64,000 bases of DNA from contig NZ_JQGK01000007.1 in NCBI RefSeq assembly GCF_000743525.1, forward strand, positions 1 to 64,000, written 5' to 3'. This stretch comes from Sulfurospirillum sp. SCADC (GTDB taxonomy: Bacteria; Campylobacterota; Campylobacteria; Campylobacterales; Sulfurospirillaceae). Made by a program: the position numbers and the translations under genes. The notes under the pieces were generated by a model. The model did no database searches. It was not told the origin of the DNA and saw nothing but the letters and a program-made list of their open reading frames with translations. Positions 24,604-28,198 of this stretch are shown here, piece by piece; the first letter of the stretch is position 1; every line of letters starts with the position of its first letter.

Positions 24604-26424
24604 CTACACCTCTTCGGTTGGTTTGAAAAAAGTGTAACGATTTTTGCCCGCTTGCTTAGCGGCGTACATGGCTTTATCTGCATCAAGGATGAGCTCATCC
24701 GCTTGGCGTGTGTCGCGAGGATAGAGGCTAATCCCAATACTTGCAGAGATACGAAGTTCAATACCATGAATGTCAATGACTTCATTCATCGCTTCTAGGA
24801 TGCGTTGCACAATGATGGTGCATTCACTGGCTTCCTCTAAGTTGGTCAAGAGCGCTACAAACTCATCGCCTCCTAGGCGTGCAATGGTCTCATTTTTGCG
24901 CAACAATGAGGCAATGCGTTGGGAAGCCGTGATCAGAAGTTCATCCCCAACACTGTGCCCATAGGTATCATTAACTTCTTTAAAGCCATCCAAATCAATG
25001 TATAAAACCGCTAAAGAGGTGCTGTAACGCTCTGCTTCTGCAATGGCTTGTTTAAGTCTATCTTGCAGTAAACTACGGTTGGGAAGCGAGGTGAGTGCAT
25101 CGTGTTGTGCGAGATGTTCTAACGCTTTTTCATGCTCTTTGATGGTGGATATATCCGTAAAAAGGGCTACAAAATTTTGAATTTCCCCTTCGCTGTCTTT
25201 AATCGCACTGATTGTAAGCATCTCTGCGTAAATACTGCCATCTTTTCGACGATTCCAAATCTCTCCTTGCCAATTTCCAAAGGTAGAAATGCAGTGCCAC
25301 ATCTGAATGTAAAAAGGCATCTCTTGTCTTCCTGATTTTAAGATGCGAGGGTTTCGACCGATAATTTCATCGCGTTGATAGCCTGTAATGCGAACAAAAG
25401 CATCATTGGCTTCAATAATAGTGCCATAAGGATCGGTGATAATAATACCTTCTCTGGCATGGGTAAAGACATTGGCGGCGAGTTGAAGCTTGGCATCACT
25501 CTTACTCTTCTCAATGGCAAGGGAGATGAACTGGACTTCATCTTCAAGCAGTTTCATCTCACGCGGTGTAAGTGGCTTATTGTGCAAAGAGCAGAGGATC
25601 AAATATCCCAGAAACTGTTTGGATGCAGAGACAATAGGATTGATCCAGCAGTGTTGATTTTGCTCATGCGCTGCCATCTTCTCATCCTGCCAAGGTTCAT
25701 GCGCTAAGGCACTTAACAGGTGTGGTTTTGGCTCTAAAGCGAGCAGTTGGGTTAAAAAGTGGTTATCGCTGTGGGCTGCTTGAATCAGTGCCGTGTTTAC
25801 ATAGTGTAGCTCATTGGAGGTCGCTCCTAGATTGAGTTGATGATGGGTTTCATCCAAAAGAAGAATGCTACACCCAATGCAGCGGTGATGAATGGATTCA
25901 ATATCGCCTACGATGACATGTAAAATAGAAGAGAGTGGTGACATATGTGCCATCATCTGTAAAATATGTTTATGGTGGATTTCGTATTGCTGAGTGTATT
26001 GGCGCTCATCAATATTGGCGATCACACCGACAAGCCCAATTTGCTTGCCTTTTGCATCGTAAAAAGGTTTGCATGTCAGGCGCCCCCAAAAGATGCTGCC
26101 ATCTTCTTTGTAGTAGATGCGCTCTAAATCCACAGAGTCTATTGTGTTGGCAAGAAGTGCTACCATCTTTTGTCTGCTCAGTTCTCGCTCTCGTGGGTGA
26201 ATGAGCTCAACATACTGTTTACCAAGCAGTGCTTCGAGTGGGTATAAAAACATCTCTTGCATGCGTTGATTGGCTTGGATGATGCGCCCTTCAGGGTTGA
26301 TCAAGAAGATGGCAACACTGGAGGTATCCAAGATTTGCTTAAAGAAAATTTCCTGCTCAGCAAGCATTTGTGTAGCGCTGCTGGGTGGCAATAGTCTTTG
26401 GATAAGTTTAGAAACAAGGCTCAT
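24604..26424 (-). CDS. PAS-GAF-PAS-GGDEF diguanylate cyclase
   Basis: A cytoplasmic 606-residue signalling protein without membrane helices. The order is a PAS domain (about 28-145), a GAF-like domain (about 150-305, containing CWINPIVSASKQFLGYLILCSL), a second PAS with PAC (about 310-430, ITDPYGTIIEANDAFVRITGY) and a GGDEF domain (about 440-602). The active-site sequence is RLGGDEFVALL, intact for c-di-GMP synthesis. No RxxD inhibitory site is evident immediately upstream. There is no EAL domain. The input is probably a redox, gas or small-ligand signal sensed by PAS/GAF, but no haem or flavin motif can be named. Confidence 0.9.
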   Translation of the reverse strand: MSLVSKLIQRLLPPSSATQMLAEQEIFFKQILDTSSVAIFLINPEGRIIQANQRMQEMFLYPLEALLGKQYVELIHPRERELSRQKMVALLANTIDSVDLERIYYKEDGSIFWGRLTCKPFYDAKGKQIGLVGVIANIDERQYTQQYEIHHKHILQMMAHMSPLSSILHVIVGDIESIHHRCIGCSILLLDETHHQLNLGATSNELHYVNTALIQAAHSDNHFLTQLLALEPKPHLLSALAHEPWQDEKMAAHEQNQHCWINPIVSASKQFLGYLILCSLHNKPLTPREMKLLEDEVQFISLAIEKSKSDAKLQLAANVFTHAREGIIITDPYGTIIEANDAFVRITGYQRDEIIGRNPRILKSGRQEMPFYIQMWHCISTFGNWQGEIWNRRKDGSIYAEMLTISAIKDSEGEIQNFVALFTDISTIKEHEKALEHLAQHDALTSLPNRSLLQDRLKQAIAEAERYSTSLAVLYIDLDGFKEVNDTYGHSVGDELLITASQRIASLLRKNETIARLGGDEFVALLTNLEEASECTIIVQRILEAMNEVIDIHGIELRISASIGISLYPRDTRQADELILDADKAMYAAKQAGKNRYTFFKPTEEV

Positions 26425-26569
26425 ACAACGCTCTCTTTGAAAAATGTTACAGGTAGTTTAGCGCGTAGTGTAACATAAAATTTGGAATTATGAAATGGAT
26501 TTTTAGCGTTTTTGATCTAAAAAATAAATTTAATATATTAATAAAATAAATAAGTAAAAAATAAGATTT

Positions 26570-28120
26570 TTAAACTCTTTTTGCCTCAATGACCATCTGA
26601 TCGAGGATGGTGAAAAGCTCTTTACTTTTCAGTTCAATCACTCTAAAATTCTCTAAAATGTTTTCCGTTTTTTCCACGCAGTTTCCTTGCGCAATGCACG
26701 CCAAAGAGGTGCGTACCTTCTCATGGACACTGTGATGAGGCTCTTCTAAGAGAGGATAACTTGCCACACTACTAAAGGCTTTTTTGCCATCACCCACTTC
26801 GTACCATTATCCTAGTCGGCATTGATGATGATCTCCAAATGTGGTTTTTGCATCATTTTTAAAGAGAGTATTATAGGCATTGAGTTTGAAGATAATATGG
26901 TCAAGCTTAGCAAGTTCAATAAAAATATCATACGAAATCAGAAGATTTTCACGACGAATGGCATTGGCGTTGGTCGTGAGCTCTCCTAAACTCTCTTTAA
27001 AGCATTCGACCTCCTGTACGGAAGCTTTGACATACGTTTCCGTACTTTCACTGCTCTCGACCATTGTTTCGGCATTTTGCTTTAGAATGTTGATCGCAGT
27101 ACTTTGGTGAACATTTTGAACGACGATGGATGTTTGGTCATTCAGTTTTAAAATGGATTGCAATGTTCCAATGGTTGTCTGCATGGTTGGTTGAATGGCA
27201 AGGCTTCCATGAATCGCCCCTTCACTCATCAGATCGGTCAGCGAGATCATGAGTTGGGATCGCTTCATATGTTGATGAATCTGTTCATTCGCCTCTTTGA
27301 TCTTCTTCTCTTCCTCCTTGGCAAGAAGAACATTCTGTTCAAATTTATCAAAAAGAAGGTTGAAATTACGAGATGTTTGCGCGATTTCGTCGCTACTCAC
27401 AATGGCTAAACGGTTGGAGAGATCACCTTGTTCGGATGCTAGGGATTCGGCAATGGATTTGAGGCGATTGATATTTTTTAGAATGGATCTGCTGGTCAAT
27501 GCTAAAATGCTCAGCAGAAGAAAAACACCCAAAAATGCTGTGAGCAAAAGCGTTATAAATCCTCTCTGAAGTGCGCTATCGGCACGTGCCTCATCTTTTT
27601 GCGCTTCTTGGTTGGCAAGAATCACCAGTTGATCGACGTAGTTTCGATGCGTGTCATATGCTGTTTTGAGTTTTCCCAGCACCAGCGCTTGGGCTTTGTT
27701 AAGATCGTGGGTATCTATGGCAGGTAAAAACTCTTTTTCGGTGATTTCAAAATAGCTTAATGCGGAGTTTTTAACCTCATTAAGCACCAATTTTTTCATG
27801 GATGATTCAACGTCACTCTCAAACCAGTATGCTTGGCGATTCATAAACTCTTTCTTTAACGCGAGTAATTTTGTTTTAAGTTCGGCAATCTGTGCGGTGT
27901 CACTTGTGAGCATAGCGTATGTAATCAAGCGGGTTTCGATGATATGCTCAGGCGGAGGGAGAATGTCGGCAAGCAGGTCTTTGGAGAGAATAATTTTGGT
28001 GTAGAGCTCACCTTTAATTTGCACGGCATTGATGGTGATAAATGAGACTCCAATGACCAGTGCCACGACGAGCATGCTGAGGATAGCTGCTAGAATTAAC
28101 CGTAGTTTTATGGTCATCAT
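26570..28120 (-). pseudogene. HAMP/CZB sensor protein interrupted by an in-frame stop
   Basis: A membrane sensor: helix at residues 8-27, periplasmic four-helix domain, second helix near 195-215, HAMP linker (LKSIAESLASEQGDLSNRLA) and a C-terminal zinc-binding CZB domain. TAA at 26807-26809 splits the CZB domain between CRLG and WYEVGDGKKAF, in the same reading frame, exactly where the family has Lys (CxLGKWY). The downstream 79 codons complete CZB with its HxxxH. The stopped protein loses two of four expected zinc ligands. No methyl-accepting signalling hairpin is present between HAMP and CZB. Start taken at the ATGATG at 28120. Alternatives to a true pseudogene are a sequencing error, stop readthrough or a truncated functional product. 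Confidence 0.8.
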
Positions 28121-28198
28121 AGAGCCTTGGATTAAAATGTAGACCATTAAAAGCTTTAAAATATCGTATATGCACTATCTATTCCAATGCGATAAAGT

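Follow-up and report, generated by a model that had tools for sequence, protein, structure and literature searches.

A chemoreceptor gene remnant with a split CZB domain in Sulfurospirillum sp. SCADC, probably a recent pseudogene

The CZB gene of Sulfurospirillum sp. SCADC interrupted by an in-frame TAA is very probably a recent chemoreceptor pseudogene that was disabled twice, by the stop codon and by an in-frame deletion of the signalling hairpin. Both lesions were absent from the intact orthologues at the same locus. The remnant lies on the minus strand at positions 26570..28117 of the window, by which we mean the whole stretch of 64,000 nucleotides that was analysed. It encodes a four-helix-bundle sensor, a HAMP domain and a CZB domain, with the hairpin missing between the last two, and it has syntenic orthologues. 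This is gene decay of an ordinary kind, with no new mechanism.

The premature stop and the missing hairpin

The open frame begins at 28147, and comparison with the orthologues identified the ATG of MTIK at 28117 as the most likely true start. The full-length frame ends at the ancestral TAA (26572-26570). Translation of 26573-28147 on the minus strand reads FGDHHQCRLG*WYEVGDGKKAFSSVASYPLLEEPHHSVHEK, the stop directly after CRLG being the TAA at 26809-26807. The CZB domain (26711..26899, minus strand) matched PF13682 across this stop as one domain with a single TAA within it, scoring 50.7 bits against a cut-off of 29.4, while its halves scored separately reached 16–17 bits each, under the cut-off. 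The domain was assigned to CZB by this score together with its His, Cys and HxxxH ligands. The sequence-only reading had placed a TAA at 26807-26809 within one continuous CZB domain, with the His and Cys ligands kept upstream of it and the HxxxH pair lost, and the profile match and the translation bore this out. The premature stop cuts off the last 79 codons. The 78 codons that follow it (26573..26806, minus strand) are still recognisable as CZB and run to the ancestral end without a second stop or a frameshift. That reading had also expected Lys at the interrupted position and a single change from AAA to TAA. The codon was indeed AAA in each of the five orthologues compared in a codon alignment; Gln was the alternative in two more distant orthologues (L012/G022 and L014/G014).

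Upstream of the CZB domain, HAMP was found at 27341..27496 on the minus strand (residues 218-269 of the 446-aa frame; 33 bits, Pfam cut-off 25), and 4HB_MCP_1 matched with an E value of 4e-5 but did not reach the family cut-off. The sensor and HAMP architecture of an MCP chemoreceptor is therefore present in the remnant. PF00015 (MCPsignal) gave no match in the window protein or at the corresponding place in the genome. The signalling hairpin with its conserved tip, by which an MCP is recognised, is thus missing, and the gene was classed as an MCP remnant by orthology and synteny.

Every orthologue carries the MCP hairpin between VVQNVHQST and the INILKQN helix. Between the same marks there are 112 codons in the orthologue and 24 in the window copy, from which 88 codons (264 nt), including the hairpin tip, are missing in frame. 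The sequence-only reading had overlooked this larger lesion. The deletion joins VVQNVHQST to AINILKQN at 27096..27097 on the minus strand, about 290 bp upstream of the premature stop in the same gene. The junction, CAAAGTACTG|CGATCAACATT at 27097/27096, is unique in the window. In genome G007, GATCAA stands at both ends of the block that was lost here, in AGTACCGATCAA on the left and GACGATCAA on the right, which suggests that the block may have been removed by a microhomology deletion; the junction is two bases longer than a clean exchange at GATCAA would leave. No displaced copy of the block was found in the genome, where the best match (70%, or 75% over a shorter stretch) came from another intact MCP. 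Counted from the tip Glu, the deletion took away 54 residues on the N-terminal side and about 34 on the C-terminal side, and is no symmetric loss of heptads. This asymmetry points to a receptor without its tip and not to a shorter receptor class, and the two remaining arms are unlikely to pair in their old register. The coiled coils of MCPs consist of a series of paired heptads (PMC6628036).

Before the two lesions, the gene would have encoded a membrane-bound chemoreceptor in which a four-helix-bundle sensor in the periplasm was followed by HAMP, an MCP signalling hairpin and, at the C terminus, a zinc-binding CZB domain. The 264-nt deletion took the hairpin tip with its role in trimer formation and the binding of CheA and CheW, and the one-base substitution took the C-terminal codons with the HxxxH zinc ligands. 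The hairpin tip is the interface for trimers of receptor dimers and for CheA and CheW (PMC6606802), and in the CZB chemoreceptor TlpD a C-terminal truncation of 45 residues abolishes chemotaxis function (PMC13001251). The remnant has thus probably ceased to signal, and neither a truncated nor a read-through product would be expected to do so. Helicobacter pylori TlpD resembles the ancestral type in being an MCP with a C-terminal CZB domain and a 3His/1Cys zinc site (PMC8262984), but TlpD is cytosolic and intact, whereas the remnant combines a membrane sensor with a truncated CZB domain and lacks the hairpin. The CZB domain of E. coli DgcZ shares the four-ligand zinc site (PMC8262984); unlike in the window gene, it is N-terminal on a diguanylate cyclase, and DgcZ is no chemoreceptor.

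Orthologues, synteny and selection

With one genome per species compared, intact orthologues were found in eight other Sulfurospirillum genomes (G007, G012, G005, G004, G011, G010, G014 and G022). Their stop-to-stop frames of 606–632 aa encode a four-helix-bundle sensor, HAMP, MCP hairpin and CZB domain, and none of the eight has the premature stop or the deletion. The order of sensor, HAMP and CZB is shared with the window copy, and identity reaches 81–83% in the N-terminal part (G007). In contrast to the window copy, intact orthologues (for example L036, S. diekertiae JPD-1, NZ_CP023275.1; L037, Sulfurospirillum sp. UBA1314; G007) have the hairpin and a stop-free CZB domain. The locus is common to the window copy and five of the eight orthologue genomes (G007, G012, G005, G004 and G011), with conserved neighbours: a response regulator, a histidine kinase, a recR-like gene and an adjoining PAS-GGDEF gene on one flank, and AMP-binding, aroE and pabB/trpE-like genes on the other. 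Pfam matches apart, we take the names recR-like, aroE and pabB/trpE-like from resemblance. No chemoreceptor match at E 1e-15 was found in six Sulfurospirillum genomes (G003, G006, G009, G015, G016 and G020), and several further genomes of the genus gave matches to the CZB region only, so that members of the genus seem able to do without the gene.

The dN/dS of the gene against G007 was 0.096, near the values of the neighbouring genes (0.03–0.15), which indicates that most of the divergence arose under selection. At codons otherwise invariant in six genomes, the window copy had 16 unique changes (15 replacements and the stop) and G007 had 5, against 33 and 36 in seven neighbouring genes (Fisher p = 0.026, or 0.042 without the stop), a weak test with small counts, neighbours that are partly more constrained and a region that is partly recombinant. 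Several of the replacements specific to the window are in or around HAMP (T220R, A234E, P248A and E250V). This weak test may reflect a brief, recent spell of relaxed selection and allows at most a short time since the loss, and the lesions are probably recent. A low dN/dS and a clean frame after the stop count against a pseudogene; they are expected of a very recent loss and would also fit residual function. That the deletion kept the frame, a chance of one in three, also counts against it.

From 24604 to 26780, a segment that starts about 30–60 bp past the stop and runs through the PAS-GGDEF gene, the window is nearer to G012 than to G007. The remainder of the chemoreceptor gene and aroE are nearer to G007, and the pabB-like gene is nearer to G012. 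Such alternating affinity suggests that homologous recombination may have taken place between Sulfurospirillum lineages. Mosaic ancestry was not adopted as the cause of the stop; the switch lies about 30–60 bp beyond the stop and not at it.

Weighing of the alternatives

The sequence-only reading had left four options side by side: recent decay, sequencing error, readthrough and phase variation. Two independent inactivating changes make a recent pseudogene more likely than regulated readthrough, phase variation or an isolated sequencing error. An error in the sequence or assembly, with the real gene intact and the stop, the deletion or both spurious, is unlikely. The assembly is a draft of 38 contigs, and the genome holds 29 MCP hairpins similar to the lost block that may confuse short-read assembly. 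However, this explanation requires two separate faults in one gene, both ends of the deletion lie outside the most conserved core, its junction falls at the short shared GATCAA and is unique in the window, and the block is not found displaced elsewhere. A base-calling error at the stop would leave the verdict unchanged, because the deletion remains. Phase variation was disfavoured, since the change is a base substitution and no homopolymer or obvious repeat tract was seen by eye in the DNA around the stop.

Programmed readthrough or recoding of the TAA, giving a minor full-length product, is the least probable of the explanations considered. The CZB-like frame that stays open to the ancestral end agrees with it, but every readthrough product would be without the hairpin tip, so that even readthrough yields no working chemoreceptor. 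None of the 39 tRNA places typed in the genome has a UAA-reading (TTA) anticodon; the anticodon TAA that is present belongs to a Leu tRNA reading UUA. Neither a suppressor tRNA nor a stop conserved in relatives, either of which would mark a readthrough gene, was found: no stop interrupts the eight orthologues or the four further CZB proteins encoded in the genome. A new function for what is left of the protein (sensor, TM, HAMP, continuous coil and half a CZB domain), such as that of a dominant-negative or decoy receptor, is very unlikely. The frame was kept by the deletion and by the remainder, and dN/dS is low. Against this stand the excess of window-specific replacements, several of them in and around HAMP, the absence of the CheA/CheW interface and of a full zinc site, and the asymmetry of the deletion, which would probably keep the arms from pairing in the old register. 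Even more doubtful is that the remnant is expressed and kept as a short sensor-HAMP protein with a modulating effect on other receptors or, together with the neighbouring PAS-GGDEF protein, on c-di-GMP signalling. A recent pseudogene thus remains by far the best explanation.

Other receptors in the genome

The genome would recently have lost one member of a large complement of about 30 chemotaxis receptors. The locus is best annotated as a pseudogene and not as two short CDSs or a readthrough candidate, and before a stop found in one sequence is interpreted, the whole gene should be compared with its orthologues. The search for promoters and terminators gave nothing clearly above chance. Plasmid records gave no match, and the literature titles returned revealed nothing specific about Sulfurospirillum CZB receptors or MCP pseudogenes. 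No second intact copy was found in the genome, the next best match being a different CZB-MCP with 38% identity. Elsewhere in the genome, 29 other MCP hairpins scored over the family cut-off, and there was one further weak match. Four of these 29 hairpin proteins also carry a CZB domain: L004 (G000:C27), L005 (G000:C13), L003 (G000:C4) and L001 (G000:C1). Three of the four have short frames (354–379 aa) and may therefore be soluble TlpD-like receptors.
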